Positions 27,105 through 46,078 of a stretch of 64,000 nucleotides of DNA are shown here, piece by piece. The number at the start of each line of letters is the position of its first letter. The first letter of the stretch is position 1. The notes under the pieces are model-generated. The model ran no database searches. It had not been told where the DNA came from and saw only the letters and a list, made by a program, of their open reading frames with translations. The stretch spans positions 106,740 through 170,739 of the forward strand of contig FJOG01000048.1 in assembly GCA_900073065.1 (NCBI GenBank), written 5' to 3'. Both the position numbers and the translations under genes were made by a program. This DNA comes from Phialocephala subalpina (taxonomy: Eukaryota > Ascomycota > Leotiomycetes > Helotiales > Mollisiaceae).

Positions 27105-27724
27105 TGCTTTCTTTGGTTCTCTTGCCGGTCCTCTTTTGACTGAATATCCTCTGACCAGAGCCTTTTTCTGCCACGGTCACTCAAACACCAATGCGAAACG
27201 CCAGCAGCAAGCAGTAGATCTATGCTTGTATTGTTAATCCAATGCGGGAATAACAAAGCTCTTCACAAGGTCGAGGGTACCCATCCTGCGAGTTAAACCA
27301 GGTGTCGACGCACGAATCTGCGCTCTTGCGATAGTGCTAACGATAAGAGATATGCCTCTATTCAGTATTATATATTCGGCATCGCAAAATGATGATTCAG
27401 TCTCTATACAAGCAAACCATGATTCGATTGAAATCGGAATTGCTTATATTATATGCGGTTCAATAGTAAAGGAATACAAAAGGATATAATTTTTATATAT
27501 TAGTATTTGATATTATTCCTTCTTATTAGAATTCATAATAAGAAAAAGTTTTCTCCTATTATATAAAATGTAATTAATAAAAGGAAACAATTATTAATTA
27601 TTTCGAATATTTTATAAAGTAATATAATTTTTCTAAAAAAGAAAAATAAAGTAATTATAATAATTAATAATTAATATAAATTTTATAAAAGTTTTCAATT
27701 ATTTTTATTTTGAAATATTTAATA
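27105..27724. other. Transition into A/T-rich block
   Basis: From about 27390 the sequence becomes almost all A and T (runs such as TTATTAATTATTTCG), with no open frame. This looks like an AT-rich, repeat-degraded block flanking the transposon. Confidence 0.7.
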
Positions 27725-29561
27725 AGTCAAACCCCCTAGTAGTCGGCCACCCCCTGAAGTCGGCCGCCTCGCTTAATTCACCACCACTTACTCTCAACCT
27801 CAATAACTTTTTTATTCTTCTATTATTATATGAGATAAAGTAGAGGCAATACTAGCAAAACTGTCGGAATCTAACGGTACATTTTGGCGGTCCCCAGCTT
27901 AAACTTATACTCTGTAAATATCCTCAATAATGGCAAACTTGGAATTTGGACTAGTCACTACCTTCCGCCGCTTTCTAGGCTCAAGTTGCACTACTCTAGC
28001 CTCAAGTTGCTTAATCCGACGCTCGTGCCGGGCAATAACAAAGTCCTTATCATCTAATCCTTTGGCTACCTTCCTAAAAAGTACTCTAATAGTTGCAAGA
28101 TTAGTGTTTAGAAGTCCCGTGATTTGCATAGTCTGCTCTCGAACATCACTACCCTTTTGAGGAGTTTAAAGAACAACCAATAACTAGTCCTAATTCCATT
28201 TGGGTATTACATCTTTTGCTGAAGTTCCTAGAGTTTCCTCGGCCGCTTTATTACTATTTTCAAGCAATAAACGGTTTATAAGAGGCTTAGCCATTCTCAC
28301 CGGCCATAATCCTAAAGCTCCCCACCCTGCTTTACAATTTGTAACTATCAAAGCATCTATTCGAGCCAACTTATAGCATTCCAAGAAGTTTTACTTTCCA
28401 ATAGGCGTTAAATCGTTCAAAAAAGTCAAAGTTCCAAGCCGTTTTCGGTAAGCATACTTCAAGGGGGAGAATATTAATAAATCCAAAGGTTAAAGCACAT
28501 AAGAAGTATATAATGGTAAGAATAATAAGTAGATATTATTCGAAAAGCACTCCCACATAAATTCCAGTATTTCATGACTCCCATGGCCGTCTAGAATAAG
28601 CAAACGAGGCTCCTTAGGGTCACGTGGTGCCGTCTGGAGTATAAAGACTATTTGCAACCACTCGAGAGCAATATCGTCCGAAGTCTACCTATTATCAGTT
28701 ACAGTGAACTTCCAGCCTTTATAGGCCTTTAATCCCATAGGGAACCATTGCTATTAAACTGATTTTCCCTTAAACATAACAAGTGGAAGTAAGGCCCGGC
28801 CCGTTGCCGAGATACACTCAATAAATAAAGTCCAAGCTTTAGATCCTGGCTGTTTCTTTTGAATAAAACGTTTCTAGGCACTTCTAACCACTAGTCCATT
28901 TTCCCCTTGGCCTTCCATAATCCCTGCTTCATCCATATTCCAGCGATTCTCCGCTTTGATAGCTTTAATGGCCGGGACCTCCAATTTTTGGAACTAACCC
29001 TTAATAATATCGGAGGTAGCGCCATTTACGCGTGCAGAATCAATCCTAAATTACTTCTTAGTCTTAAGAATAAGATTCCTGCGAAGAAACCCAGCCATCT
29101 AGCGTTTTCCAAGTGGTACAGCGTCATATCGAGCAGCCAAAATCCTCCCGGCAAAAGCCCGGATCTGCGCATAAGTAGGGTTCTAGCCTAAGCTTTCTTG
29201 GACTAGTACCCAATCTATAAGACGTTATTCTTGGATCAGGGCAAGCCTTTGTTCGTGTGTATAAGCTTCTGCTCGAGAAAGGCGGCCAGATATTCTATCT
29301 TGAAGAATGCCTCTCGGTACACCCCAATCGAGACTAGCTTTGCGCATAGACTTGCCATTAGCTATCTCTTTAAGAGCATACTAGACGTTGTCTTCAGTAT
29401 ATAAGGGCTTTATAATCACTGCTAACTATCTGCAAAGTTTGAAAAGATTTTATTAAAAAATAATTATAAAAATTGAATGTAAAGTAGGTGGGTGGGGAGT
29501 GGCGGTATGCTAAGCGAGGCGGCCGACTTTAGGGGGTGGCCGACTACTAGGGGGTTTGACT
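27725..29561 (-). mobile_element. pogo/Fot1-like DNA transposon, RIP-inactivated
   Basis: Complete 1837-bp element. Inverted ends of about 50 bp start AGTCAAACCCCCTAGTAGTC on the left (27725) and end with the reverse complement at 29561. The left copy reads CCCCTGAAGTCGG where the right arm reads CCCCTAAAGTCGG. Both sides are flanked by TA (27723-27724 and 29562-29563), the target duplication of Tc1/mariner-type elements. It lies in A/T-rich DNA and encodes a transposase on the minus strand. Confidence 0.9.
27905..29430 (-). pseudogene. pogo/Fot1-type DDE transposase with 15 in-frame stops
   Basis: One reading frame runs the length of the element without a frameshift. In order it shows a helix-turn-helix region (LKEIANGKSMRKASLDWGVP), a second DNA-binding region near LIDWVLVQESLG, the DDE core (WNMDEAGIMEGQ with the first Asp, LLILDGHGSHE with the second), FSPLKYAYRKRLG, and a C-terminal coiled tail (HERRIKQLEARVVQLEPRKR). 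It is broken by TAG or TAA at 29381, 29225, 29183, 29099, 29051, 28994, 28874, 28754, 28751, 28685, 28490, 28391, 28190, 28184 and 28166 (lowest plus coordinate of each). None is TGA. All fit CAG, CAA or TGG codons hit by CpA-to-TpA change on one strand or the other, the RIP signature. Confidence 0.88.
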
Positions 29562-30003
29562 TAATTAATATTTTAAATAATAATTTAAAATTACGTATTT
29601 ATTATTATATTATATTATAATAAATATTTAATAATTTTAATATTTTAAATAAAATATATTCAAAAGATTTTATAATTAGAATTTATAAAATATTTTTTTA
29701 TTAATTATTAATATAATAATAAATTAAAATATTTTAAATAATATTTAGAATTTTATTTATAAAATATATAAAATTTTAAAATATTAATACTTATTTATTT
29801 ATTAAATAATAATAAATTATTATTATAATAATTTGAAAATTATTTCTTTAGTTTTTAAAACAAAATATTTTACTTAGAAAAGTTAATAATAAGGACCAAA
29901 AATTAGATGAGATATTTGAAATATTGGATATAGCCATAAATTAGGAATACTTGTAGACTTAAGATCAATTTTTCTTTTGCTGATTCCGTTTTAACCTCCG
30001 GAC
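29562..30003. other. A/T-rich block right of the transposon
   Basis: From 29562 to about 29950 the sequence is nearly pure A/T with no gene. Composition returns to normal near 29980. Confidence 0.75.
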
Positions 30004-30494: not shown

Positions 30495-32064
30495 CTAGCG
30501 TTTAAGCCCATTCCGAATTTTGAGTCCTTGAGCAGAGTTCCAGAATTCTCCACGTGGATACTCATAGTTCCGAATCGCATCAGGCTTATATTGAACACTA
30601 TAGCCAGCCTCCCATGGTGTTATGAAGTAACCATTTCGTACTTTGACCGGGTGTGTGATGACATCACTGAACGAATTGATATGTTCCAAGAGACCTCTTT
30701 CTCCACCCAACGAGATGTAGTTAATGAGAGCCAGATGTTGCGTGTACTCATTGAGACCGATTCCTCCGCTGTGAGGTACTACGGGCACATTGAATCTATT
30801 CAAATGTTAGCCTTGTTTTGAATATAACCGTAGTACAGAGATATGTCATACTTTTTGGCCATCAACAGCACCGACAAAACCTCACTCACGCCACCCAAAC
30901 GGCAGGCATCTATCTGGCAGACGTCAATGGCACCTGATTGCAGCAATTGTTTAAAGACAACACGGTTCTGGCAGTGCTCTCCAGTGGCAACACCAACCCC
31001 AAATGGTTGCAGCGCGGCACGGATAGCAGCATGGCCAAGTATGTCATCTGGAGATGTTGGCTCTTCGATAAAACTAGAAGGCAACTCCCTGTTAATATAT
31101 CTGAGCTGGTTTCATTGGTATAAATGGCAAACTTACACAGGTCTGAAAGGGACAAGCTTAAGCATGTACTCGATAGCCTCGGGAACACTCCAGACTTGGT
31201 TTGCATCAATCATAAGCATTTTGTCATAGCCGATCACACCCCGAGCGATCGTCAGTCGACGTATATCGTCCTCGAGACTGCCCCCTACCTTGAGCTTGAA
31301 CTTGTCGAAACCTTCTTCCAGCATGCTTCGCATTTTTCTAATCATCTTCTCATCCGAAAATCCCAGCCACCCAGCTTGTGTTGAATAGGCAGGCACAGCA
31401 TGATTGTTCTTTGCATCCCGGATCCTATCGGCCTTTGTGTCGTCCATTTTTTTGAGCATGCTGACAGCCTCCTCTGGCGTAATCGCATCGAGAATGTATC
31501 GAAAGTCGATGCACCTTACAAATTCCTCAGGTGTCATTTCTGCCACCACCTGCCACACAGGCTTTCCCAGATAGCGAGCCCAGAGGTCCCATAATGCGTT
31601 GACACAGGCGCTCAAGCCGAGATGAACGACACCTTTCTCCGGCCCAATCCAACGCAGTTGCGAGTCACTAACTAAATACCGCCATGTCATACCCATATCT
31701 TTGGTCAACTCCGCCAAACTCTTTCCCACCAGCCTCTCAGACGTATAACGTGCGGCAGCACACACGAGATCATTGCCGCGTCCAATAGTGAATGCAAATC
31801 CGTGGCCATCCAACTCTTGCTTAGACGTATGGAGGATAACGTATGACGAGCTGTAGTCCCCCGCAGGATTCATAGCATCCGAACCGGATTGATCCAGACT
31901 CGTGGGAAATCGTAGATCTGCGGATAGACTGACTTTAGCAGTGACTCTTATACAGGAAGCGGGTAATTTGAACCGTAAATATCGAAAGACTTAATCACCA
32001 CATCTTCAATTGAATCATTGACACCGGTGGCATGATTGCCGTTCGTGGCCCCATCAGCAGACAT
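30495..32064 (-). CDS. Enolase-superfamily sugar-acid dehydratase (L-fuconate/L-galactonate type)
   Basis: Cytosolic Mg-dependent enzyme that removes water from a sugar acid to give a 2-keto-3-deoxy acid. Exons 32064-31974, 31917-31137, 31073-30852 and 30795-30495 give 464 aa; introns are 56, 63 and 56 nt, the first with a GTTCAA donor. It opens [20 protein letters not shown] and then has [10 protein letters not shown] and [13 protein letters not shown]. The catalytic lysines are in KFKLKVGG. Metal ligands are Asp in [10 protein letters not shown], Glu in [10 protein letters not shown] and Glu in [10 protein letters not shown]. The general-base His is in VPHSGGIGL. These fit mandelate-racemase-group L-fuconate dehydratases and the closely related fungal L-galactonate dehydratase (lgd1/gaaB). 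The nearby alpha-L-fucosidase favours L-fuconate as substrate, but that is context, not proof. Confidence 0.88.
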
Positions 32065-32416
32065 TGCAAAGGAATGTATCTTCAGAGGCAGTAGACCCAA
32101 AAACAAGAAAAGAAAGTGCAATGGTATGGCAGGTTATTCAAAACTATAAACAGCGTAAGGCAAGGCAGTTTTATATTTGTGAGAAGCTGGAAACACTTTG
32201 GGTCATACAATTCACTATATGGCTCCTTAGAAGATGAATTGTTTTTGTGTTGGGGGGCGGGGCTGCTGGTAAATCCTAAAGGGGGAATTTTCGGCCTTTG
32301 TGCACCTGAGAGGTGGGGCTCCATGGGCTCATCAAGTTTGATCCGTTTACCTCACCTGTTAATTCAACTACTTTCCGAATTCTCCACTGCGTTTCTACTT
32401 CTGACGGTGTGCAATA
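32065..32416. promoter_or_regulatory. Upstream flank of the dehydratase gene
   Basis: No gene seen. Presumed promoter of the dehydratase, with a purine/pyrimidine-mixed stretch containing TGGGGGGCGGGGC near 32253. Confidence 0.35.
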
Positions 32417-32583
32417 CAGTACAACCTCCATATAAGAATCCTCTAGATAAGAATACCCGACTAATAAGAATCGAATGACAGGTCCTGTTTCTTTTAGACA
32501 GAAGAATACCCTTGTATAAGAAGACCTCCCTGAATTCTTACGAAACGTGTTCCCGAGCGTATTCATGTATAGAGGTTGTACTG
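32417..32583. mobile_element. MITE of Tc1/mariner-pogo type (167 bp)
   Basis: Short non-coding element with inverted ends: CAGTACAACCTCCATATAAG at 32417 and a right end whose reverse complement reads CAGTACAACCTCTATACATG. It is flanked on both sides by TA (32415-32416 and 32584-32585). Internal motifs such as TAAGAATAC recur. Its ends differ from those of the 1.84-kb element at 27.7 kb, so it belongs to another family and depends on a transposase not in this window. Confidence 0.85.
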
Positions 32584-32707
32584 TAAGTCCAACTCATATC
32601 GACAACAGATGCAAGGGATAGTGAAGAGGAGGATTCAGCGATGGAATAGGACGAGAACGTAAATTTCTCCCATGACATCAACATTGATTAAGGCTACTAA
32701 GAACAGC

Positions 32708-35197
32708 TCAAATTTGTATCTCTACGGTCCAATTTTCTTTTCCAGGGACAGCCTGTATGTTTGCCAAATCTACCTCCACTAGACACAAACCATTTCCTTT
32801 TGATTTGACAACATAAAGGGTCGAAATGTTGTCAACTGTGACCCTGACCCTCTTCTGAGCATCTTCCACTCTCAACGCGACGAGAAAACCAGCAACGCCA
32901 TTCAAACTAAAGTCTATAGACAGCTTCCCGGCCATAGCTTGACTCCTTTGAATAGCTGCAAGACCGGCATATTTATCAATCAAACCGAGACATGCAACCA
33001 TGGCGTCGCCAAGATGTTTGTAAGGCACAATAGTAAGCGTCTCCATGCCCTGCGGCCCTATCAATGTAGATATAACAGGCGGTGAAGAAGACGCCTCATA
33101 AGATACGTCTTGTCCAAAGTCCCTCAGTCTCACAGACTTAGCTGCGCCAGCAATAGAAAGCCACACCGCAACGTCTAAATTACTATCTCCATGAACAGGC
33201 TTCTCGATGCCTTCCAAAGCGTCAATGAGGTCACTCTCGAAGATAATGTCCACTGCATTATCGAGAGCGTCTTTGCGTGCGTTCCAAAGGACGAGAGACG
33301 CGGATCCTGCGTTAGGAAAATATGAGACGCCTTTGATGGCTGGGCCAACACCCTCATCTAAACATCCCTCCCACACACTCCTTGACAGTGGCCGGATTGT
33401 ATGTGGTGCCTTAACTACTTCGTAGCTGTTCGTCGTTGACCTTCCCACCAATTTATGTAGGACCTGAAGATCGAGCTGCCCTGGCTTATCAGCGAGCAAG
33501 ATAGGGCCCTCGAAAAAAGCGCGCAAGACTGCGTGGTACTCAGGCCACTTGCCACTTGTCATAAACATATCCGGATCAGGAATGAGACATAGTTGGGAGG
33601 TGAGCATCGCGTTATAGATATTATAGTGAATGTGGTTGCGGTGGATATCAGGTCGACTGAGACCAAAGTCATCAGAGTTCCTGATGACGATCTTCCTGCC
33701 TTGCGTCGCAACACCCATTCCAATGTCACCATTGAAGGTGCGCTCGTAGTGGGCCATGCAATGGATGACTTTGTTGTCACCGAAGACTTCATTGGCGGCT
33801 CTGGTCATGCTGTCCCACAGAGCGATGAACTCCTCGCCGCCTGAGACCCCATCTAGAAGTGAACCATAGGCCTGGTCATCGACTTTCACAAAACTGATGC
33901 CAGCATCACAACAGCTTGTGAAGTAGTCTTTCCAAAATGCATACGCCAGATGTGGAGGTGGTAAGCACCAGGTCCTGTTCTCGGGGTTGGATATAGAGCC
34001 AGATTGCTGTCCATCAAAGTCGTTATTGGGCCAGTCGATTCCTTGAATATTGTCCCGGTTCAATTTGAATTTCCGCATCTCGTACTTCTTTGCTAGTGGC
34101 GAAGTTGGGGCAATTGAATTCCAGTACCCGTGTAGAGTCATCCAGACTCCAACATCTTCCACTGTCGGAAGGGTCTTTTTGATCAGACAAACAACATCCG
34201 AAAGAGGACTGCGCATGTGCTCCCATGTATCGAAGCTCCATAGCCCTCGTGTTTTTTCGCTGCCATTGAGCCCGTAACGAATATCTTGCCAGCCATCATC
34301 AATGATGAAAGTGCCAACTGGGACGTTAAACTTGGCCAACTTATGAACCAGGTCATCCATAAGATCGAGTGTTAACGGAACATCTTCGCCAATGCTTGAC
34401 CACGTGCAGAAGCCGAGACGGTCAAAAGGGCTATGGCCAGTCTCGCGAGTAAAAGGAGCTGTTGAGTAGCCGTACTTTTTACGCGCAACATCAATTGCTC
34501 CGCGAATTGCACTGAGCTCTCCATTATGAACGGTGAGTTTGGCACCAACATAGGACACGATCCTGCCACACTTCTTGACTCTTCGGGCACGGATATAAAC
34601 GCCAGGGACCTCTCCAAAACGAGCAGCACTTAGATGGATAAAAGCTCCAGGTGGTGATGCTGGGAATACCGCCAGGACCGATTTAGGGTCTGTTTCCGGG
34701 ATTTTTGGCCGTAGCAGGAGGTTGTGCGTCGGTGTATATGGCGACAGTTTGCTCAATGGCGTAAAAGACGCCTCAATCCATGTCTCCCTTGGTCTATACC
34801 ATGCCCAGCCTTCCCAGTCATTGATATCGAGCCAGTCCAGTTTCTGGCTCTTTTGATCCTCGCCTTCTTCGAGGACAAGCTCTGTTAAAAACTCCTGGTC
34901 CTTGCTGCGGAAATGCCCATGCACAAACGAGATCTTGCCCGTCAACTGGACACCATTTGCGAGAACCGAAATGTGCTCAGGAAAATCTGAGGATGGAAAT
35001 GAGGTCTTGTAGGTATACAAATCTCCAGATGACTCGAGATCGATCTGCTCGAAATCCGAAGTTCCACCTTCGAAATTGGCCACCAGCTTGACTAGTTTTG
35101 GAGAGTTTGCATAGACTGCAATTCTGGAAGCACCAAGGGGAACTATGACAGTCTGCCCGAGGGCAGGCGTAAAGACGATATACTCGGTGGTAGCCAT
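32708..35197 (-). CDS. GH36 raffinose-synthase/alpha-galactosidase-like protein (829 aa)
   Basis: Single-exon, full-length member of the raffinose synthase / seed-imbibition (Sip1-like) branch of glycoside hydrolase family 36, acting on alpha-galactosides. After an N-terminal beta domain, the barrel starts at FDRLGFCTWSSIGEDVPLTL and shows VGTFIIDDGWQDIRYGLNG, GVWMTLHGYWNSIAP and the nucleophile strand ISFVKVDDQAYG (Asp after KV). The acid/base candidate is in VIRNSDDFGLSRPDIHR. There is no signal peptide (MATTEYIVFTPALGQ), so it is likely cytosolic. It is divergent from the GH27 gene with 773 bp between the starts. It may hydrolyse or transfer alpha-galactose on imported oligosaccharides. 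Confidence 0.88.
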   Translation of the reverse strand: MATTEYIVFTPALGQTVIVPLGASRIAVYANSPKLVKLVANFEGGTSDFEQIDLESSGDLYTYKTSFPSSDFPEHISVLANGVQLTGKISFVHGHFRSKDQEFLTELVLEEGEDQKSQKLDWLDINDWEGWAWYRPRETWIEASFTPLSKLSPYTPTHNLLLRPKIPETDPKSVLAVFPASPPGAFIHLSAARFGEVPGVYIRARRVKKCGRIVSYVGAKLTVHNGELSAIRGAIDVARKKYGYSTAPFTRETGHSPFDRLGFCTWSSIGEDVPLTLDLMDDLVHKLAKFNVPVGTFIIDDGWQDIRYGLNGSEKTRGLWSFDTWEHMRSPLSDVVCLIKKTLPTVEDVGVWMTLHGYWNSIAPTSPLAKKYEMRKFKLNRDNIQGIDWPNNDFDGQQSGSISNPENRTWCLPPPHLAYAFWKDYFTSCCDAGISFVKVDDQAYGSLLDGVSGGEEFIALWDSMTRAANEVFGDNKVIHCMAHYERTFNGDIGMGVATQGRKIVIRNSDDFGLSRPDIHRNHIHYNIYNAMLTSQLCLIPDPDMFMTSGKWPEYHAVLRAFFEGPILLADKPGQLDLQVLHKLVGRSTTNSYEVVKAPHTIRPLSRSVWEGCLDEGVGPAIKGVSYFPNAGSASLVLWNARKDALDNAVDIIFESDLIDALEGIEKPVHGDSNLDVAVWLSIAGAAKSVRLRDFGQDVSYEASSSPPVISTLIGPQGMETLTIVPYKHLGDAMVACLGLIDKYAGLAAIQRSQAMAGKLSIDFSLNGVAGFLVALRVEDAQKRVRVTVDNISTLYVVKSKGNGLCLVEVDLANIQAVPGKENWTVEIQI

Positions 35198-35970
35198 AAT
35201 ACTTACGGATAGAGGAAAGAGAGAAACCTTCTGATATAAAGTGGTCTACCCACCATGTGCCTTGGACTTCACAGGTCCGCGAAGATTTGCATTACGGTAC
35301 GTGCAGATGATAGCTAAGGTGGATATATGCGTCCCGTAAAAGACATACGGCGATGCGACGAATGGAATAGCATCATCGAATATCAACGTATCTTCATCCG
35401 CCGCGAGGAGAGACTAATTCTAATTCTGCTCCCATCTACCTTCTCCACCGAAATTTGAAACGCAACGGGGAATGGCAGCGGGCAGATTTTCGGGGGAGAT
35501 GCATGTGTGCAGTGATTAGGAAGCGACATGCGTAGATCAGGTGGCTAACCGAGAATACGAGGCACTAACTTAGCCTGCCGAGAATCCTGCCGCGGCCGAC
35601 GGGACCCCTCTCGGTTGGCGCTTGGGGGGGTCAGGTGTGAAATGTTCGAGAGGTAAGAGACATGCGACAACGAAGATCTCCACAATCTTTCTAATAAGGA
35701 TCATGTCAGACAGGGCCGCAACGTTACAGTACCGTACTTATTCGTCATAACAATGCCTTCCCATACCCTGCTTTCTCCATCGTCAAATTGGCAGGGTGCG
35801 AGCATCTATCATACCAGGAACTCGTTGCCCGAGAATGTTACCGAAAGCATCGTAGAAGCATAGATATTGACATCGGGTTTTATACAAAGTGGCCAAGTTC
35901 GAATTCCGAGATTGACTTATTTGAACACTGAGCTCAATCATTTCAAACTTCTCAGAATATAAAGCAAAGA
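35198..35970. promoter_or_regulatory. Shared divergent promoter of the GH36 and GH27 genes
   Basis: 773 bp between two divergent starts. CGG/CCG triplets of the sort bound by Zn2Cys6 dimers are clustered near 35578-35618 (CCGAG, CCGCGG, CCGACGG, CTCGG). The linked regulator at 43.3-44.8 kb is the obvious candidate to bind here, which is inference. Confidence 0.4.
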
Positions 35971-37776
35971 ATGGCTTTGACCCTTGTTGTCGTTTTGTTG
36001 ATGGCTCTCAACGCCGCCGCCCAATGGCAATGCGGTGGAGCAACCTACCCCCCTGGATCTGTATATTTTACGACTGAATGCATGCAGACAGCTCAAAATT
36101 GCATCAGTCAATTTGCCACAAATACAAGTCAAGAATACTGTCAAGACACAGCCGGAAACCTTTATATGCAACAAGAACCGTTCAATGGCAACAACAACGA
36201 CTACACGAGTGCTTTTCAGGATATTCTTGATTTCTGTCTTCTGGATGGCTGGACCACAGGAACTTGGGAAACAGATGATGGCCAATGGTTCTGGATGGCT
36301 GCGGAGGCGGGCTGCTACTCATCAGCCGGGACTATACCGACAAAAGGACCTGGTTTCTGCGTTCAGGATCGCACCGATACCGTTATCAATGGATGTTATC
36401 CGCAGCCAAGTGCCAATTCAGGACCTTTGCAGATTTTAAAAACCGGACCGACTGCCAACGGCTTCACTGGCCCTGCGAGAGGATGGAATTCTTGGGGTAT
36501 CCAAGCTACTCCTGCCACTACTCCCAGTTGGCAAATATTCAACCAGAGTAATGTTATCAACCAATGCACGGTTCTAGCTCGACCTGAATTTCAACAAATG
36601 GGCTATGATCTCTGCAGTTTGGACGCCGGTTGGAATACAAACGTTGTTGATGAATATGGAAGAATTCAGTACAACGCTGCGTTGTTCGATTTGGTTGAGC
36701 TTGGAGAATACCTCCACGGCATTGACCTCAAGATGGGTGTCTACGTCATCCCGGGTGTTCCATGCAGTGCTGCCAATAAAACAATCAAGGGCACAGACAT
36801 TCGAATTGGCGATGTTCTGATTGGAAATAACGATGGCCTGGCCTATTGTGACTGGGACTTCTCAAAGGATGGCGTTCAACAGTGGCACGACTCCTTGATT
36901 GAATTATGGGCTTCCTGGGGTGTGGACATGATCAAGCTGGACTTTGTTACTCCTGGCAGTCCTTATAACGGAGCAAACCTCGTCTGCAACAACAGCGCGG
37001 CTGTGGAAGCTTTCCATAACGCCATAAAGCAGTCCGGGCGACAGATTCGATTGGATCTCTCTTGGAAACTTTGCCGCAACGAGACTTACCTTCCTCTCTG
37101 GAGTCAATTTGCCGAGTCAATGAGGACCGATCAGGATATCGATAACTATGGACAAGATACTTTTGTTGCTTGGCAAGAAGTTCAACGTGCGATTGACAAC
37201 TACCGGCAATACATCTCGTTGCAAAAACAACGGAACGTAGCAATTACGATTTACCCTGACATGGACAATCTTTTCGTTGGAAACTCAGCGAATGTTACTG
37301 GGGTTAGCAACACTCAAAGAATCACCATCATGAACCACTGGCTTGGAGCTGCCGCCAATCTAATTATCGGCTCTGATCTTACACAGCTCGATGATTTGGG
37401 ATTACACTTGCTGACAAGTTCGCAATCGGCTGCTGTTGCCAAGTTCTCTGCTCAATACCCAATGCAACCTCGAAATCCTAAAAGTGGCAACAATCTAGCT
37501 CAACAGCTGCAAGCTTGGATTGCCGGTCCTAGCGAGGCAAATGAAGCTTATGTCATTTTGGCTAATTATGGGCCTGACGAGGGTGCCGGTGGATTTGGTA
37601 CGTCTTTGACGGGAGTTCAAGCCGTGACGGTCTCGTTGAGTGACTTGGGAATTTCGGATCAGAGTTGGACATTTACCGACATCTGGAATGGGAACTCGAC
37701 TGGGGTGTCAGGGACATTCACGGCTTATCTTGACGAATATGAGTCTCAACTATTGCACTTGGAACGCATAGGATAG
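35971..37776 (+). CDS. Secreted GH27 alpha-galactosidase with Cys-rich N-terminal extension (601 aa)
   Basis: Single exon. It starts with a signal peptide (MALTLVVVLLMALNAAAQ). Residues 20-150 form a cysteine-rich region (WQCGG, TTECMQTAQNC, EYCQD, DFCLL, AGCYSS, GFCVQD, NGCYPQ) not part of the catalytic barrel. The GH27 barrel begins ARGWNSWGIQ and continues YDLCSLDAGWNTNVVDEYGR, KMGVYVIPGVPC and YCDWDFSKDGVQQWHDS. The nucleophile is in VDMIKLDFVTPG and the acid/base Asp in SMRTDQDIDNYG. Typical fungal GH27 enzymes lack an extension this long. Likely role: removal of terminal alpha-galactose outside the cell. It converges with the GH95 gene (75 bp between stops). Confidence 0.9.
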   Translation: MALTLVVVLLMALNAAAQWQCGGATYPPGSVYFTTECMQTAQNCISQFATNTSQEYCQDTAGNLYMQQEPFNGNNNDYTSAFQDILDFCLLDGWTTGTWETDDGQWFWMAAEAGCYSSAGTIPTKGPGFCVQDRTDTVINGCYPQPSANSGPLQILKTGPTANGFTGPARGWNSWGIQATPATTPSWQIFNQSNVINQCTVLARPEFQQMGYDLCSLDAGWNTNVVDEYGRIQYNAALFDLVELGEYLHGIDLKMGVYVIPGVPCSAANKTIKGTDIRIGDVLIGNNDGLAYCDWDFSKDGVQQWHDSLIELWASWGVDMIKLDFVTPGSPYNGANLVCNNSAAVEAFHNAIKQSGRQIRLDLSWKLCRNETYLPLWSQFAESMRTDQDIDNYGQDTFVAWQEVQRAIDNYRQYISLQKQRNVAITIYPDMDNLFVGNSANVTGVSNTQRITIMNHWLGAAANLIIGSDLTQLDDLGLHLLTSSQSAAVAKFSAQYPMQPRNPKSGNNLAQQLQAWIAGPSEANEAYVILANYGPDEGAGGFGTSLTGVQAVTVSLSDLGISDQSWTFTDIWNGNSTGVSGTFTAYLDEYESQLLHLERIG

Positions 37777-37851
37777 TTTCTCAAAGTAGGGGAATTTAGA
37801 TAATTCAGATTTAGGCATACACTCTACCAATGTCAAAGTTCGCTTCTTGAA

Positions 37852-40245
37852 TTATGCTTTTGAGAGTAACTCCAGAGAATTGCTCAACCGAATAACCTCC
37901 AAACTATCAAACGATAAGTCGACCCGATGGTTTTTGTAGTATAACGTCACACGGCCTGGTGAGAAAGCCTTCAACGTCACCACGGTCAAATTTCCATCTT
38001 TCCACTCGATATCAAATTCTACATTGCCTCTCGCACGAAGCCCTTGAACAAAACCAGAATGCCACTTCGAGGGTAGAGCAGGAAGCAGATCTACCTCGCT
38101 GTTGCTGCTTCTCAGGAGCATCTCACCGACCACCGCCGCGCCCCCAAAGTTACCATCGATGACAAAGATGCTGTTCTCAGCCCCGGCAACTCCAGCTTTA
38201 GAGTACGAAAGCAAATTCTCGAAGCAAAGCTCCCCAATCAAATGGCCAACATGCTTGAGGGCACTCTCGCCATCATTGAGACGTGCGAAATTGAGTCCGA
38301 ACAACGCAGCGGTGAACTCAATGTCTTCCAGATCTGCGCGAGCTTGCCGGTTCGCAAGGGTTACTCTAACTGACTCTGCGAGCGCGGGAGTATGACGAGG
38401 CGTGATCTGGTCGCTTCTGCACAAAGCAATTGTATGAGAAAGATGGCGGTGGTCGGGCTGGGACTCCTCGTAGTCTTCGAGCCACTCTTGCAGCTGTCCC
38501 TTCTTCCCGATCTTGAGGGGAGGAAGTTTTGGGAGAGCATCCTTCAGCCGAGAGCAAAATTCAGCGTCCGTATTGAGCTGACTTCCAGCGTTGATCAGGA
38601 AGTGGAAAAGATCACGGATGAGAATTGTATCCACTGTGGGAGCAAGGCAGAGCTGCTGCTCGCCATCTTTAACATCTCCTGTGAAGAAGCTGTTCTCGGG
38701 CGACACGGATGGCCCTGTAACGAGGTGGCCGCTGATCGGCTCAATAGTCATGTAGTCCAAGTAGAACTCCGCTGACTTTTTTAGGATCGGGAAAGCTTTT
38801 TCAGCCAAGAACGTTTTATCTTGCGTATACTCGAAATGTTCGATCAGGTGCGAGGCAATCCATAAACCTCCAGTAACATTCAGACCCCAGCTAACCTCCC
38901 ATCCAGGGTCTGTGAATCCCCATACATTTGAGAACACGTGCGCAACCCATCCAGGACTGCCGTAAAACTGTTCTGCTGTTGTCTCCCCATCTCGGGCTAG
39001 AGTCTCAATATAATTAATGAGAGGTGCGTGACACTCAGTAAGACTCGTCATCTCTGTGGGGAAGTAGTTCATCTGGGTGTTGATATCCAGGTGATAGTCG
39101 CAGCTCCAGTTCATCTTACTTGCCTCGCCGTCATTCCACAGTCCTTGCAAGTGAAGAGGCAAAGGGGAGTCGGCACGCGTGCCTGAGATCGTAAGATACC
39201 GTCCGTATTGGAAATACAAAGCGAAAAGGCTTGGGTCATCAAACCCAGATTCATTGAACCTAGATTGCCTCTCATTCGTAGGCAATGCTGCGCTTTCATT
39301 ACCTCCAAGATTGATGCTGACTCTACGGTACAGACTCTGGTGGTCTTTCATGTGATCTGTTTTGAGCTGTTCGTAGGTACGTGACTGTGCATCTTTGAGC
39401 TGTGCCGAAGCCAGTGACATCCAGTCGTTGTTTGTCTGTCTGAAATCGGTGTTGAACGCCAAGAAAACGAGGGCAAATTTGGCGTTCTTCACGACCAACC
39501 TTCCATTGTTGACCTGGATTGACCCCCCAGGCGCGCTGATTTTGACAATCCCTCGACCTCGTACCCCGCATTTTCCATCGCTGTGAGCACTTTCAAGTGC
39601 ATGAGCCTGAAATCCAAGAGCATCTCCCATGATCGTCACGATGAAATCAGGATTCTCACTCGAAATCGAGAGGGTCAGTGATAGACCTTGGGTTGAGTCG
39701 GTGCTGATTTGGGACACAAGGATCTGTTGTCGATGGGAAATAAATGTCTCTCGACGGTAGTTATGGCCGCCAAGAACATATTGAGCACTTGCAACAGCTT
39801 TGTCCAGATTCAGTTCTCGTCTGAAGTTACTGGGTGCGGCTGATGGCTGATCGAATTCCAGATGTATTTTGGCAACGGTCAGATTTGTGCCGTAATTCTT
39901 CTTTGAGGGTTGCAGATACTGCTCCGCCAGCAGCTTCCCACCCACGAAGTCATTGCCAAGATATCGGGCTTGGATTTCCTTGATTGCAGCTTTGCCACCA
40001 TAAACCTTGGGTGATAGCTCAGACTGGCCCGACCAAAAAGTTATCTCGTTGAAGCTCCAAGTTTCCTTGCTGATTTCCGACAGCACAACCGCGCCAATTC
40101 TGCCATTCCCGATTGGGAGCCCCGTACCCCATGCCTTGGCCGGCGTATTGTACCACAGTGCTTCGGTCATGACTATCCAAGTTATGAAAACTCTATGCCG
40201 CAGCGAAGGGGCAGTTCTCCTTAACGTGCGAAGGGACGTCTGCAC
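37852..40245 (-). CDS. GH95 alpha-1,2-L-fucosidase (about 772-797 aa)
   Basis: Inverting alpha-L-fucosidase that removes fucose linked 1,2 to galactose, as in fucosylated xyloglucan side chains. Signatures: ALWYNTPAKAWGTGLPIGNG at the start of the N-terminal beta domain, LQGLWNDGEASKMNWSCDYH then DINTQMNYFPTEM (the Asn residues that position the water), GPSVSPENSFF (Glu general acid by family), LSHTIALCRSDQI, and IDGNFGGAAVVGEM (conserved Asp). The ATG at 40170 starts directly at the family's N-terminus; the upstream ATG at 40245 adds 25 residues (MQTSLRTLRRTAPSL...) that do not look like a good secretion signal. So the enzyme is probably intracellular, unusual for a plant-polymer hydrolase and fitting a model of imported oligosaccharides. 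Confidence 0.92.
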   Translation of the reverse strand: MQTSLRTLRRTAPSLRHRVFITWIVMTEALWYNTPAKAWGTGLPIGNGRIGAVVLSEISKETWSFNEITFWSGQSELSPKVYGGKAAIKEIQARYLGNDFVGGKLLAEQYLQPSKKNYGTNLTVAKIHLEFDQPSAAPSNFRRELNLDKAVASAQYVLGGHNYRRETFISHRQQILVSQISTDSTQGLSLTLSISSENPDFIVTIMGDALGFQAHALESAHSDGKCGVRGRGIVKISAPGGSIQVNNGRLVVKNAKFALVFLAFNTDFRQTNNDWMSLASAQLKDAQSRTYEQLKTDHMKDHQSLYRRVSINLGGNESAALPTNERQSRFNESGFDDPSLFALYFQYGRYLTISGTRADSPLPLHLQGLWNDGEASKMNWSCDYHLDINTQMNYFPTEMTSLTECHAPLINYIETLARDGETTAEQFYGSPGWVAHVFSNVWGFTDPGWEVSWGLNVTGGLWIASHLIEHFEYTQDKTFLAEKAFPILKKSAEFYLDYMTIEPISGHLVTGPSVSPENSFFTGDVKDGEQQLCLAPTVDTILIRDLFHFLINAGSQLNTDAEFCSRLKDALPKLPPLKIGKKGQLQEWLEDYEESQPDHRHLSHTIALCRSDQITPRHTPALAESVRVTLANRQARADLEDIEFTAALFGLNFARLNDGESALKHVGHLIGELCFENLLSYSKAGVAGAENSIFVIDGNFGGAAVVGEMLLRSSNSEVDLLPALPSKWHSGFVQGLRARGNVEFDIEWKDGNLTVVTLKAFSPGRVTLYYKNHRVDLSFDSLEVIRLSNSLELLSKA

Positions 40246-40961
40246 GTGACTATCACGGAAGGAACTCCCAGGGCTTGTTTGTATATCTGAGCACCTTGTC
40301 AGCCTTCCAAATCCTGCGTGGCGTGATATTCGCGCATTTCCGAGGCTACATGTTCATGAACGTACGTGGGGGTTCTCCGACTGGGGATTTTCGTGGCGCC
40401 CAAAACAAGATTCAACGCGGGGCGTCCTTCCTGGGTACATAAGTTTTCCCTTTGCGATCACATTTGCCTAGCGGGCAAAATCCTGTCTCGACAAAAGGGT
40501 TGCCGAAGCTTGCTTCGTGACCCAAATGGCGGAATATCTATTCACGGTCACGTCGGCTCTGAACACGGGTCGGTGAGATTCTCGGGCAGGCGTGGCCAGG
40601 GGTTCAAGATCAGCGCAATTAAGGTTACCCGAGCAGCGCAAAAGCTGGGGAAGAAGGGGATAGCTACGCAACAGACCACTTCGTATTGGTCGCTCCACAG
40701 ACATGAGATTCCCACTCTTTCAAGATTCTCGTCCAGAATCCTCGCGCTGGCCATGCGCGCGCAAATTCTCGGCAGAGGTCAACGTATTCGAAGACACACC
40801 GCGATTCTTGCCGGGCCATAGTAACATTACTGTGGGACGGTTCCCACCCTAGACAATCCAGATGCTGGCAACCTACAGTTATATATCTCCCAGTTCTAAG
40901 TTGATCGCAGCACATCAGCGCATCAGCACATCCAACTTGTTACATCGCAAAGTTATCGAAG
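40246..40961. promoter_or_regulatory. Shared divergent promoter of the GH95 and transporter genes
   Basis: About 716 bp between divergent starts (792 bp if the fucosidase starts at 40170). No gene is supported inside. The sequence is G/C-leaning with several CGG/CCG triplets. Confidence 0.4.
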
Positions 40962-43047
40962 ATGGAGAAAGCCACAGAAACCGCCATGATCGAGAATGTC
41001 GCCTCCAATGTGGACGTGGAGGAAGAGCTTCGCGAAGCAGCGGCCAAAGGGAAGCTCGATGAGCTAAACAGAGACATGGCCAAGAGAGGCACTGCGACCG
41101 AGCATAAGATGAGAACTTGGGAAGCCGTGAAGCTCTACCGAAGAGGTGCCTTCTGGTCCATGTTCATCTCTCTCTCTATAATCATGCGCGCCTACGATAT
41201 CGAGATCATGGGCAACTTTTACGCCCTTCCGGCTTTTCAAGATCATTTTGGTATTTTCTATGAGGGTCACGGCTATCAGATTCCCGCCGCTTGGGTAACA
41301 TTTCTATTTCTTTGAGCAAAGGACCAACGCTGACATTTTTAAAGCAAGTAGCAATGTCCATGGGCTCCCTGGTCGGACAGATTTTTGGAGCATTCTTTGT
41401 CTCATACCCAATGGAGATTTACGGCCGAAAGAAGACTTTCGCCGTCTGTCTTATTCTCACTGCCATCCTCACCTTCATGCAATTCTTCGCCTCCACGATT
41501 GGTGTCCTCACAGCATCTCAATATCTCTCAGGAGTCGTCTGGGGTGGTTACTGCGTTATTGCGACTACCTATGCCTCAGAGGTCCTCCCACTCGGTCTGC
41601 GAGGCTTCCTGACGGGTTATAGTATGTATATCTCATAGATATCCATTTCTTGGTTCTACTCGCTACGAAGGACTCCGTGTGAGAAACCTCGCTTAGAACC
41701 CCCCTTTCTAGTTTTATTGAGCAATGCTGACTCGGAAATTTACAGTTAACCTATGCTACGTTATGGGCCAATTTATTCAGACGGGCGTTACACGAGCTTT
41801 TATTAATCGCCTCGAGTTCGTACTTCCCGGAGTCATTCCTTCCTATTCTGAGCGGATTCACGAGCTCTACTCCGAGATCTACTCTGAATACTTCCTTTGG
41901 CAATGTAATTTCGCAGTAGAGCTCATGCAACCTCGCTTAACACTCCTCCATTTCTGCTTTCATTGAGCAATGCTGACTCTGAAACTTCACAGTCAATGGG
42001 CCTATAGGATTCCGTTCGCCCTTCAGTGGATTTGGCCCGCCATCCTTCTCTGCGGCCTTCCTTTCGCTCCTGAAAGTCCATGGTGGTTGATTCGACAGAA
42101 TAGGATGGAAGCCGCGGAACAGGCACTCGAGAGACTTTCGGAGCCTGATGAACGCATCAACACACGAGAGACTCTGGCGATGATGGTACAAACCGACATG
42201 CTGGAGCACGAGATTGAAGTCGGTACCACATATGCGGACTGCTGGAAAGGCGACAACCGCCGCCGTATGGAAATCTGCATCCTGCTCTTCGTGATTCAGA
42301 ACTTCTCGGGCAACCCGGTAGGATTCGCAACATATCTCTTTGAGCAGGTCGGCCTCAGCGGTGAGCATGCGTTTGATATGGGCGTTGGTCTCAACGGGAT
42401 GGGATTTGTGGGGACGTTGTGCTCTGCCATTCCATTGATTTATTTCGGTCGTCGGTCTTGCTACATCTTCGGACTTTCAACCGTTGTGACGATACTCTTC
42501 ATTGTCGCCTTTATGTGTCTTGCAAAAGACTATTCCGCAAATCAGAACTATGCGTGGGCCCAGGCTACGCTGCTCATCGCGCTGCAGTTCGTTTGGCAGA
42601 TGACTCTTGGTCCACTTAGTTACGGTTCGTCTTCTCAGTTCTTTTCTTATTCCATACTGCTTCGGGAGTTGCGAGAATTCATTCACCTTAGAAGAAATCA
42701 TTCTGACTATGAGATCCTGAATAGTCGTGGTCTGCGAAACACCATCGACCAAACTTCGATCCAAGACCATTGCTCTTGCAACCATGATTGACGCCATTAC
42801 TGGTCTCGCCACTTCTGTTGTTGGGCCTTATTTGCTGAACCCCGGTGCAGCCAATGCAGGTGCTAAGATCGAGTTCTTGTACGGAGGGATCTCTGTGTTT
42901 TCTCTGATTTGGTGCTTCTTCCGCCTTCCAGAGACTAAGGGACGGACCTATGAGGAGCTGGACATTTTATTTGAGCGCAAGGTGCCGGCGAGAAAGTTTA
43001 AGAATTATGTCATTGAGGATACTGATGATGTCGTCCCTGTAGTTTAA
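40962..43047 (+). CDS. MFS sugar/oligosaccharide transporter (544 aa, five exons)
   Basis: Proton-coupled sugar porter closest in style to fungal alpha-glucoside/maltose permeases (RTWEAVKLYRRGAFWSMFIS, YDIEIMGNFYALPAFQDHFG). Exons are 40962-41294, 41345-41621, 41746-41815, 41993-42624 and 42725-43047, a whole number of codons. Sugar-porter marks: the Y-G-R-K-K loop after helix 2 (PMEIYGRKKTF), the TTYASEVLPLGLRG signature, WAYRIPFALQWIWP followed by PESPWWLI, YFGRRSCYIFG, and PETKGRTYEELDILFE near the end. Introns 2 and 3 (41622-41745 and 41816-41992) share their last 60-70 bases. Introns 3 and 4 use GTTCGT donors. Divergent from the GH95 gene; likely imports the oligosaccharides or sugars that the cluster's enzymes process. 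Confidence 0.88.
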
Positions 43048-43264
43048 GGTTTTCTGGATTGGCTGCTCGTGGGTCGTCGGAACGGATATATTCTTGTTGA
43101 TCTTTTCCCCGCGGTTCTGCGCTGAATCTCCACAGTAACGAAATAAATCTATGCATTTCATTACTCCAACTCACACTCCGAAGAATGAAGTTGACATCGA
43201 AGAGATAACTTCGTAGTGCCTCATAATCCTACATATCTATATACGACAATCCGTGTGTGGATAG
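43048..43264. other. Convergent 3' flanks
   Basis: 217 bp between the stop codons of the transporter and the Zn2Cys6 regulator. No gene. Confidence 0.5.
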
Positions 43265-44764
43265 TCATGGAATTATTGGAAACTCGTCGAGCACTGGCAA
43301 AAACGAGCTCGGTGAGAATCCATTCATATCGTATTCGGATTCGTTGACCTCCTCAGCCACATCGATACCACGCGGGAGCATAGATCCCCCAAGAATCACA
43401 TCAAGTTTCGCTGACAGCTTATGCCTCAAGTCTGGGTTGCTGACTTGAAAGGAGAACAATATCCCAGCCAGAGATTGAAGCGTTTCCCTAGGTCCAACCA
43501 ACAGGGACGACTGTTCTTCTGGCTTGCACTGAATAGAATCGGCTAGAACATTGGCAATTTCATACATCTTTACCTCCATTCCCGGCCCATGTACCTCAAA
43601 AGCTTCAGGTGAAAATTTGAACACCTCACCAAGCACATCTTGGGCGATTTCCAAAGGGTACGTGATGTTCATTTCTCTTTTGCTGTTCAGCATCACATAG
43701 CCCAACTGTATTGACAGCTTCCAAGCCAACGCCCTCATCCAGTGTTGAGAAACGACGATATCAACTTTTTGTATGTCGTTGGAACAATCGGGGTTCTCCA
43801 AAGGTCGCTGTAAGGCATACTGTATCAACAACAGGCGTTCCCTGTTGATTGAAACGTTTGAGCTGTGCGGGGTCCATTTGCTAAAGAAATCCGTTCCAGG
43901 AGTGCTAAATAGCGTGACGAGACTGAGAAATCCTGAGACCGCCTCGGGAATTTCTTCGTCCTCGGTAATGGGCAGGCTGATGGACTCAAGAACAGTGGGA
44001 AGGCCATCGTTGATGCAGAGGTATCGCTCAGTCATGAAAAGTAAGAAGTATAGTTTTCGCATAACTTGTTGGTCTTTGATGAGGTACCGTGAATAAGTGT
44101 CCTCAATATGCATACCGAATAGCTGTGCAAATGTGATCGCTTCTCGAATGTAGAAAATGGCTGTTCGCGTACGCGATGGCTGCCGGCCGTAGAAAATGTG
44201 CAGGAAGTATGATGTGAGAGTTGTGTTGAGTGTGATCGACTCCATATAGTCAAATGTTGAGCGGACCCTTTTGGACTCCGTGATAAATGACTCCGCTACC
44301 AGAGGTTCCAAGAGCGATTCGTGAACTATAACTTCATTTAGATTCGATAAGGTGGCTCCAGCAAGTGCAGTGGCAAGCGCGTAGATCTCGGGGTTGTTCG
44401 GGTCATCCTCGAGTTGATGGATAAGATTCTCGGCATTGAGCAGTGGCCATATGCCATATAGTTTCTCTCCATACGTTCGCAAAGCAATGCTTAGAAGAGT
44501 GAGTGGAATTCGATGGAGGACCGGAACCGGTCCAGGCATAGAGGGTTCAATGGAGTGTGGATCCTCCATGGCGAGACGTGCTGATTCGGTTTGCTCCATC
44601 CATATCCTGAGCATTGACCCTGGTCGAATATTGCGAGGTCCGCTCTTCCGTCGCCGTCTCAGGAAGGTACATGTGAGGCCGTTGTCGACGCAGCGAGCAC
44701 ACGGATAGTCGCCATGGCATTTGACCTTTCTGATATTGCAGCAGTCACATGCAGGCTTCGGCAT
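43265..44764 (-). CDS. Zn2Cys6 transcription factor of the glycan cluster (499 aa)
   Basis: Single exon. I start it at the ATG at 44764 (MPKPACDCC), which puts the zinc cluster at the extreme N-terminus; an upstream ATG at 44839 would add 25 residues. The cluster is CDCCNIRKVKCHGDYPCARC followed by VDNGLTC, six cysteines, then a basic linker (FLRRRRKSGPRNIRPG). A fungal-specific middle homology region follows (YGEKLYGIWPLLNAENLIHQ, FLHIFYGRQPSRTRTAIFYI, REAITFAQLFGMHIEDTYSR, LFMTERYLCINDGLPTVLES). The zinc cluster resembles that of sugar-utilisation activators of the AmyR/RhaR/XlnR kind in general style. Its position between the transporter and esterase makes it the likely pathway-specific regulator, which is inference. 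Confidence 0.88.
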   Translation of the reverse strand: MPKPACDCCNIRKVKCHGDYPCARCVDNGLTCTFLRRRRKSGPRNIRPGSMLRIWMEQTESARLAMEDPHSIEPSMPGPVPVLHRIPLTLLSIALRTYGEKLYGIWPLLNAENLIHQLEDDPNNPEIYALATALAGATLSNLNEVIVHESLLEPLVAESFITESKRVRSTFDYMESITLNTTLTSYFLHIFYGRQPSRTRTAIFYIREAITFAQLFGMHIEDTYSRYLIKDQQVMRKLYFLLFMTERYLCINDGLPTVLESISLPITEDEEIPEAVSGFLSLVTLFSTPGTDFFSKWTPHSSNVSINRERLLLIQYALQRPLENPDCSNDIQKVDIVVSQHWMRALAWKLSIQLGYVMLNSKREMNITYPLEIAQDVLGEVFKFSPEAFEVHGPGMEVKMYEIANVLADSIQCKPEEQSSLLVGPRETLQSLAGILFSFQVSNPDLRHKLSAKLDVILGGSMLPRGIDVAEEVNESEYDMNGFSPSSFLPVLDEFPIIP

Positions 44765-45274
44765 TATGAGAAGAGCTTTGGAGCAAGACACAGTCAAGCT
44801 CGGTAAGGTTGGCGCTGGAGCAATAGAAAGCCAGGACACGATGCAGGTGCAGCAGAGGCTGGTCGATCAACAGAGATACGATTCTGATATGAGGAGGAAA
44901 CATCAAAGGTGGGCTTGGGCTTCACAGAGTGAGCAACGCAGGAAAAGAGTGGAACTCGTGATAAAAGGAGAGAAAATAGGGTGCCGCAGCGCTGTTCCCC
45001 CGTACCCCGCCTTTTAACGAGAAACGACAGGGGGGAGTTCGGCGATCCTTCGATCAAGCGGAAATGGATGAGTAAGCTGGCGAACCTCGTAACTGTACTC
45101 AGTATCCCCACCCCGCCTTTCTGTTGCATGTGTTGTTCACTGGGGCAGTGTTGTCTTCCGTGCAAATCTCATGAGGGGGATATTGGACGACTGAGCTTGA
45201 GAGATCAGAAAGAATGTAATATCTATAATCTAGCCCTGCTCAATCATAATCCAGAGCTGCATATGAGAACTACT
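44765..45274. other. Intergenic, promoter of the Zn2Cys6 regulator
   Basis: No gene supported. A short in-frame leader upstream of 44764 may be part of the regulator's 5' UTR. Confidence 0.4.
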
Positions 45275-46078
45275 TCATGGCTCTGATTTGATCTCTGTGC
45301 TCACTTCAAGCTTTTCCGCCTTCACATCCTGCCACAGACTGCCAGGCAAGTCCGAATTATTGACATCAAAGATGTGTGGGAGAGTGGTCGGCAAATTCTC
45401 AGTCCTCAACTCCGGATATCTATCTCTGATAGTCTGAAGCAAAAGATCGTACCAAAGCTTGTACCCTTTGCCAGTAAAATGCACACCGTCGCTAAGTAAA
45501 TCGTCCAAGGTCTCCCCACTCTTGTCTCGCCTTTTGCCAGGAATAGGACCCTCCTCTACCCAGCCCTTGGACTCTAGAAACGCATGCCAAAGATCGATGA
45601 AAGGCACTCCCAGCTCACTTGCAACCTTGGAGGCTGCGTTGGAGTACTCCAGATTTCTCATCGTAAACTTGTCCGGGACGTCCGCATACTCATTGATTGG
45701 CGCCGGGCCCACGATGATGAGAGGAATTTGGCGCCCAACCGCCATTTTGGCAATGAAGGTAAGATTCATAATAAAGCGCTCCAGCGCCACCGCACCAACA
45801 CTGGCATCGTTCGTACCAAAGAAGATAGTCATAAGCCTGATTATGCTTCCGCCAGCTTCCTCTGCATCCAGGGTCGGCCCAACGATGTAGCGCCCGTGTT
45901 CGGTAGTATAGCCACCATAGCCACGAGCCACGACTTGGAGTTTGCGAAAGTACTCGTGTTGGAGTGCCGGTGCAAGATTGAAGCCAAATTCTTGGTTATA
46001 GCTCATTTCGGTGATCGAGTCACCGAAAAGCAGTATTTTGTCGACGGTGACTTTAGCTATCTCCGATGGGGTCGACAT
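45275..46078 (-). CDS. SGNH/GDSL esterase (267 aa)
   Basis: Hydrolase of the SGNH superfamily, close to the isoamyl-acetate-hydrolysing esterase (Iah1-like) group. The four blocks are plain: ILLFGDSITE (Ser nucleophile), VARGYGGYTTEHG (Gly), MTIFFGTNDAS (Asn), and LSDGVHFTGKGYKLW (Asp and His of the triad). No signal peptide, so likely cytosolic. Length is normal. In the context of the linked fucosidase and galactosidases, a role in removing O-acetyl groups from galactose-bearing side chains or imported oligosaccharides is plausible, since xyloglucan galactose is often acetylated; sequence alone does not set the substrate. It is the last recognisable gene of the cluster. Confidence 0.9.
   Translation of the reverse strand: MSTPSEIAKVTVDKILLFGDSITEMSYNQEFGFNLAPALQHEYFRKLQVVARGYGGYTTEHGRYIVGPTLDAEEAGGSIIRLMTIFFGTNDASVGAVALERFIMNLTFIAKMAVGRQIPLIIVGPAPINEYADVPDKFTMRNLEYSNAASKVASELGVPFIDLWHAFLESKGWVEEGPIPGKRRDKSGETLDDLLSDGVHFTGKGYKLWYDLLLQTIRDRYPELRTENLPTTLPHIFDVNNSDLPGSLWQDVKAEKLEVSTEIKSEP

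Follow-up and report, generated by a model that had tools for sequence, protein, structure and literature searches.

Could a fungus feed on fucosylated galactosides by taking them into the cell and dismantling them there, under the control of a regulator encoded alongside? The question is raised by seven adjoining genes at positions 30495-46078 of a 64,000-nucleotide stretch of the Phialocephala subalpina genome (the window: contig FJOG01000048.1, here C25, C25:106740-170739, in a 68.1-Mb genome of 119 contigs). An earlier note on this DNA had read them as a catabolic cluster for fucosylated and galactosylated glycans. In the list of open reading frames (ORFs) and a domain scan all seven are present, intact and in the order that it gave, and a gene content of fucosidase, sugar transporter, regulator and FucD-family dehydratase bears out its proposal of such a cluster. 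With a probability of roughly 0.55, we read them as an import-first, MAL-like catabolic cluster for alpha-1,2-L-fucosylated galactosides.

The gene models are predicted: five of the genes (GH36, GH27, GH95, regulator and esterase) are each a single open frame, and the splice sites of the dehydratase and transporter were picked from reading frame and family similarity. The genes and the two head-to-head promoters between them are, in window coordinates:

30495..32064, minus strand: sugar-acid dehydratase of the FucD/LGD family, 469 amino acids; exons 32064-31974, 31917-31137, 31088-30852 and 30795-30495
32708..35197, minus strand: GH36 protein of the raffinose synthase/Sip1 type, 829 amino acids, without a signal-peptide-like leader
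35198..35970, no strand: head-to-head promoter of GH36 and GH27, with four CGG-N9-CGG sites (35479, 35578, 35600, 35829)
35971..37776, plus strand: GH27 protein, 601 amino acids, with a hydrophobic, signal-peptide-like N terminus and Ala at the key specificity position
37852..40170, minus strand: GH95 protein of a bacterial-type subfamily, 772 amino acids, intronless and without a signal-peptide-like leader
40171..40961, no strand: head-to-head promoter of GH95 and the transporter, with three CGG-N9-CGG sites (40554, 40571, 40799)
40962..43047, plus strand: major facilitator superfamily (MFS) sugar transporter (PF00083), 544 amino acids; exons 40962-41294, 41345-41621, 41746-41815, 41993-42624 and 42725-43047
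43265..44764, minus strand: Zn2Cys6 transcription factor with a Fungal_trans domain, 499 amino acids, its zinc cluster starting CDCC
45275..46078, minus strand: IAH1-like SGNH/GDSL esterase, 267 amino acids, without a signal-peptide-like leader

The GH95 domains are complete (catalytic PF22124, E = 2.2e-141; PF14498; PF21307). Residues equivalent to E566, N423 and D766 are kept, and the equivalent of N421 is Asp, as it is in bacterial kin; the catalytic residues are conserved in all 70 rows of the subfamily. The polymorphic position of the family is His in the same 70 rows, as in the AfcA fucosidase, and this argues against an alternative in which L-galactose takes the place of L-fucose, with GH95 acting as an alpha-L-galactosidase and the dehydratase on L-galactonate. 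According to PMC8245568, however, that position does not fix specificity, and we dropped the Thr/His rule as proof of a fucosidase. The GH95 family does include an alpha-L-galactosidase (PMC4491172); we nevertheless hold the L-galactose alternative to be highly improbable.

Among the best 120 of 4349 GH95 matches, the nearest named one is from Hyaloscypha variabilis (90%), and named carriers span at least eight fungal genera (Hyaloscypha, Pseudogymnoascus, Hyphodiscus, Scytalidium, Xylogone, Bifiguratus, Rasamsonia and Talaromyces); after the fungi come Paenibacillus and other Bacilli at 51-53%. A tree of 94 rows from a quick search, made without the fragment P0027 and without most of the rows that follow P0045, sets 11 named fungi, the window among them, together with metagenome rows behind a 99% branch. 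Fifteen named Bacilli lie outside that branch with their own fork at 93%, entry P0045 groups among Bacilli, and the outgroups are bacterial, so that the fungal clade is the sister of the Bacilli and is not nested within them. Fungi most likely acquired the founder of these GH95s horizontally, with Paenibacillus-like bacteria as the probable donors, and the simplest reading of the tree is one transfer from Bacilli to fungi followed by spread or loss. The sequence from Bifiguratus (Mucoromycota), which falls inside ascomycete sequences, could reflect fungus-to-fungus transfer or contamination. P. subalpina has four GH95 loci; the window protein shares about 25-33% identity with the others where alignments are long, and up to 45% in a single short piece, and the paralogue on contig C117 has a very long branch in the tree. 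Another GH95, at C44:264545-265789 (L030), has in its vicinity a GH1 gene, a sugar-transporter gene and a sequence that matches the SGNH esterase of the window.

Like the window protein, 43 of the 45 best GH95 entries (its own included) begin directly at the fold, and P0013 and P0037 carry extensions. Peak hydropathy reaches 3.0 at the N terminus of GH27 and 0.7-1.8 in GH36, GH95, the dehydratase and the esterase, from which we infer a typical signal peptide on GH27 and none on the other four; GH95 thus looks cytosolic. In the mechanism that we propose, secreted GH27 would trim an alpha-linked terminal residue outside the cell, the MFS transporter would bring the oligosaccharide in, and a cytosolic GH36 alpha-galactosidase and GH95 alpha-1,2-fucosidase would dismantle it. 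The esterase, whose best solved relative is the isoamyl acetate-hydrolysing esterase 3mil, may deacetylate the oligosaccharide. The clustered dehydratase would convert L-fuconate to 2-keto-3-deoxy-L-fuconate, genes elsewhere would supply the L-fucose dehydrogenase and aldolase steps, and the Zn2Cys6 factor would drive both head-to-head promoters through their CGG-N9-CGG sites. Fungal fucose removal is thought to be mainly extracellular; if the proposal is true, a GH95 of bacterial type that lacks a leader and comes with a transporter, regulator sites and a dehydratase of its own would amount to a second fungal strategy. The cluster supplies candidates for the transporter and for a dedicated fuconate dehydratase, along with a regulatory code that can be tested.

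Solved relatives of the dehydratase include ENOSF1 (4a35, E = 2.4e-135) and L-fuconate dehydratase (1yey, E = 1.4e-132), and it retains the sequence motifs in which this family carries its catalytic and metal residues. The nearest named dehydratase among the matches listed is from Hyaloscypha bicolor (88%). The same genome has a paralogue on C56, 48-64% identical in pieces, and remoter ones on C117 and C46. In a tree of 54 rows the C56 copy groups with copies from a wide range of genera; the window copy belongs to a second clade of 33 rows (support 100/100), whose members include H. bicolor, Pseudogymnoascus VE00_10556, Trichoderma and Sporothrix. Both clades contain a copy from each of Pseudogymnoascus, Sporothrix and Purpureocillium. 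We tentatively place LGD1 in the C56 clade, from breadth and length. On that placement we rejected the window copy as an orthologue of the pectin enzyme LGD1; it is apparently a second paralogue, not of the LGD1/GaaB type, and as far as the tree goes the refuting case named in the earlier note, a dehydratase that merely serves the pectin pathway, does not hold. For GaaB itself PMC12370193 gives, citing Motter 2014, an activity on L-fuconate ten times that on L-galactonate. As for the steps that had been described as missing, the dehydratase paralogue on C117 has an aldolase-family gene 1.6 kb away, so that the genome does contain candidate downstream enzymes; none of its genes could be assigned as an L-fucose dehydrogenase. 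That C117 region (876654-880644; L027, L028) carries the dihydrodipicolinate synthase (DHDPS) aldolase-family gene by the dehydratase paralogue and then regulator-like, sugar-transporter and NAD epimerase-like frames, and is a possible second sugar-acid cluster. The dehydratase copies at C46:1495234-1495828 and C117:879037-880644 match the window copy at equal identities, and closely similar ORFs lie near the two, which suggests a duplication.

For linkage in other fungi, each list of 120 entries was compared over its first rows: 45 for GH95, counting that of the window itself, 74 for GH27 and 40 for the dehydratase; the protein lists give the longest contig per entry, and contigs of equal size in bp were taken as the same contig. 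GH95 and GH27 share contigs in eight pairs, four of them named (Hyphodiscus hymeniophilus, Xylogone, Talaromyces proteolyticus and T. stipitatus) and four on metagenome contigs of 5,138, 16,943, 55,252 and 83,388 bp; this corresponds to four of the seven named species present in both lists. In Pseudogymnoascus WSF 3629 the GH95 gene VE00_10552 and the dehydratase VE00_10556, of the same clade as the window copy, stand four locus tags apart on a 68,660-bp contig.

The two head-to-head promoters, scanned together (1,567 bp), hold seven CGG-N9-CGG direct repeats, against 0-2 at each of 15 other spacings. Shuffles of both promoters together reached seven sites once in 5000; when each was shuffled singly, four sites were reached in 5 of 2000 shuffles and three in 36 of 2000. 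The word ATTCTCGG occurs six times in the 64-kb window, five of them within these promoters, and three of the sites have CGG-N4-ATTCTCGG in common. That longer pattern has 48 matches in the genome, three of them in these two promoters, and its reversed control has seven, a count that is not independent since the pattern was defined from the promoter sites. Another of its matches (C46:1958799-1958813) is some 0.6 kb away from a distant MR_MLE dehydratase hit. Because contigs are shared in other fungi and the promoters carry these sites, the linkage goes beyond chance, and we rejected a chance neighbourhood.

Eighty bacterial loci around GH95 relatives, some ending early at contig ends, offer a second comparison. 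A close copy of an enolase-superfamily dehydratase (MR_MLE, sugar-acid type) is found in 13 of the 80, a close GH27 in 12 and a fumarylacetoacetate hydrolase (FAH)-type protein in eight; a search with the fungal GH27 gave matches in 25 of the 80. In L038 and L040, the two loci with a detailed annotation, the dehydratase, GH27 and FAH genes lie near short-chain dehydrogenases/reductases (SDRs), AraC regulators and ATP-binding cassette (ABC)-type transport genes. No sugar-acid-specific NCBIfam model reached its cut-off there (talarate/galactarate dehydratase 266 of 500 bits; 2,4-didehydro-3-deoxy-L-rhamnonate hydrolase 241 of 500), and calling these loci an L-fucose operon is therefore an inference. 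L-fucose dehydrogenase reached 179 of 300 bits without being the best model of the SDR, and among the models listed the bacterial SDRs pass solely the generic glucose 1-dehydrogenase subfamily model. Fungal and bacterial dehydratases are about 27-29% identical, so the likeness in gene content is likely to be convergence around a shared GH95 rather than operon transfer. Fungal clusters can, it would seem, converge on bacterial gene sets.

Several observations weigh against a single seven-gene cluster with a MAL-like promoter code. No exact CGG-N9-CGG site occurs in the promoters of the dehydratase, regulator or esterase, so that any co-regulation of these three genes with the others is conjectural. 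One-mismatch sites show no clear enrichment: their density per kb is 8.9 and 10.3 for the two promoters, 7.2 for the window as a whole and 11.2 for the region upstream of the esterase. The window total of ATTCTCGG is ordinary, being reached by 6 of 100 shuffles, an equally concentrated 8-mer turned up in 5 of 2000 random region pairs, and a scan that counts promoters rather than sites gives 0.25 for the N9 spacing. The regulator's CDCC zinc cluster resembles those of MAL-type activators, and its MAL-type label is tentative. Linkage elsewhere is a matter of contig sharing, not of gene order; the 8-Mb contig shared in Xylogone makes for weak linkage, and at 59-60% the GH27s of Talaromyces are further removed. 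GH95 and GH27 sit on different-sized contigs in Scytalidium lignicola, Rasamsonia byssochlamydoides and Bifiguratus, so that conserved linkage, one of the tests proposed for the cluster, came out in part: eight GH95-GH27 pairs and one GH95-dehydratase case on one side, three unlinked named species on the other. That Pseudogymnoascus case is the single one besides the window among the entries compared, in which GH27 and dehydratase shared no contig. Of 280 genome candidates for L-fucose dehydrogenase, 17 were scored, all under the cut-off and none on the contig of the window; no SDR was seen among the 27 window ORFs scanned, a scan that small or split genes could escape.

Such points lend some weight to the possibility that only a MAL-like core of GH36, GH27, GH95, transporter and regulator is real, the dehydratase and esterase being unrelated neighbours and fucose being discarded or handled by other loci. 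The confinement of exact sites to the two head-to-head promoters fits this, as do the separate aldolase/dehydratase pair on C117 and the occurrence of the dehydratase clade in more named genera than GH95 among the matches listed. It sits poorly with the linkage of that same clade to GH95 in Pseudogymnoascus, with the dehydratases inside 13 of the 80 bacterial loci, and with the action on L-fuconate that PMC12370193 ascribes to GaaB, of the same family. On balance we find it doubtful, and prefer the seven-gene catabolic cluster.

GH27 is divergent (Melibiase_2, E = 3.6e-14) and has no close paralogue in its own genome, and with a family profile its nearest solved structures are beta-L-arabinopyranosidases. 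The key position of the family is the one that contacts the C6 hydroxyl. It is Asp in alpha-galactosidases, Glu, Ile or Tyr in beta-L-arabinopyranosidases and Cys in dual enzymes, as given in PMC4598101 and PMC5853685; across 120 homologues of the window protein it is Ser in 74, Ala in 32, Gly in six and Phe in two, and the motif was not found in six. In the window it is Ala, neither the Asp of alpha-galactosidases, which counts against our reading, nor the residues of beta-L-arabinopyranosidases. Because of that Ala, the alpha-galactosidase label proposed earlier holds for GH27 at the family level and fails at the specificity position.

If GH95 and the alpha-galactosidases are taken together, they might dismantle an alpha-1,6-galactan bearing alpha-1,2-fucose, that is, the fucogalactan of basidiomycetes as part of a fungicolous diet. 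The enzyme set fits the structure of fucogalactan, and several carriers of related genes (Hyphodiscus hymeniophilus, Xylogone, Cladobotryum mycophilum, Zarea fungicola and Trichoderma) are fungicolous or close to such fungi. The carriers also include Talaromyces, Rasamsonia and Penicillium, however, and no supporting literature was found, PMC10650066 merely citing a fucogalactan in its references; fucogalactan as the substrate is a guess, and we judge this diet unlikely. Xyloglucan side chains, the source of fucose named in the earlier note, fare worse. A Xanthomonas xyloglucan locus combines a GH95 alpha-1,2-fucosidase with an acetylesterase (PMC8245568), but none of the seven genes encodes an endoxyloglucanase, alpha-xylosidase or beta-galactosidase, nor did a scan of nine ORFs of the cluster region find a xyloglucanase, alpha-xylosidase or beta-galactosidase domain. 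GH95 is leaderless and looks cytosolic, and the galactosidase families present are alpha, not beta; we regard xyloglucan use as very unlikely. A fuller picture, quite possible if short of probable, is an import-first fucoside locus in a eukaryote: a captured bacillar, cytosolic GH95 came under MAL-type CGG-N9-CGG control, and GH27 and GH36 of fungal origin and a dedicated L-fuconate dehydratase were added to it, so that the gene content of the Paenibacillus loci was re-created from mostly unrelated parts, possibly to eat the fucogalactans of other fungi.

On its left the cluster is bounded by a decayed transposon:

27709..29577, no strand: decayed transposon with 130-bp inverted ends, the left boundary of the cluster

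Its inverted arms are 75% complementary, and the frame that bears its motif, presumably of the DDE type, has 31 stops. On the right, about 2.1 kb without an ORF of at least 100 amino acids is followed by more genes, among them a NACHT/NPHP3 ankyrin-repeat, NLR-like gene (49358-52450) that extends into a run of N. Elsewhere in the window are fumarylacetoacetase-like frames (57220-58852; FAA_hydrolase_N and FAA_hydrolase), with a domain layout unlike that of the fucose-pathway hydrolase, and a tRNA-like gene by ARAGORN at 22911-22984, its anticodon unassigned; an Rfam scan gave zero matches at the gathering threshold. The transporter introns have the donors GTAAC, GTATG, GTTCG and GTTCG, and all end in AG. 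Introns 2 and 3, odd enough that we considered a pseudogene, which the intact 544-residue model rules out, have in common a 43-bp tail (within 41621-41992; 84% identical, copies 246 bp apart) that a genome search found in these two copies only.

The cluster had been thought not to be of a described kind, and that no longer stands: comparable fungal clusters of fucosidase, permease and regulator (FUR1) were reported in 2025 (PMC12370193), and the window has this trio of fucosidase, sugar transporter and Zn2Cys6 regulator together. As that paper describes it, the FUR1 regulon of Trichoderma reesei, Fusarium oxysporum and Metarhizium robertsii likewise joins a Zn2Cys6 regulator, fucosidases and an L-fucose permease; a dehydratase and aldolase of the LGD1/LGA1 route are proposed for it, and in Trichoderma FUR1 ties L-fucose to fucosidases and to alpha-galactosidases, which are co-induced, a further likeness. 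FUR1 is an 876-residue XYR1 homologue and the window regulator has 499 residues, a comparison of length only. FUR1 systems, in the same paper, have secreted GH95s and a nearby SDR, whereas the window has a leaderless bacterial-type GH95, no SDR among the ORFs scanned and, unlike the FUR1 neighbourhoods described there, a dehydratase paralogue inside the cluster. Our literature search found no report matching this version of the cluster, within a coverage that mostly leaves subscription papers outside.

Yeast MAL loci (MALR, MALT, MALS; PMC4172970 and PMC5997316) also combine a transporter, leaderless glycosidases and a Zn2Cys6 factor, with an alpha-glucosidase where the window has fucosidase and galactosidase enzymes. 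Their promoters likewise carry several CGG-N9-CGG sites: according to PMC4172970, the MalR family binds either CGG(9N)CGG, in which the spacer is AT-rich, or CGC(9N)CGN, and Malx3 requires several sites. The Paenibacillus GH95 loci have, as the window has, the same GH95 subfamily, an enolase-superfamily dehydratase, GH27, transport genes and a regulator; they differ in ABC-type transport, AraC regulators, extra SDRs and, in eight loci, the FAH hydrolase. To our knowledge SusC/D-type genes are not expected in a fungal cluster; bacterial polysaccharide utilisation loci bring enzymes, uptake and regulation together as the window does, but here import would be by an MFS carrier, and in a eukaryote. 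Fungal fucose clusters as such are already known, and the new part is the import-first design, the leaderless bacterial-type GH95 and the MAL-like promoter code.

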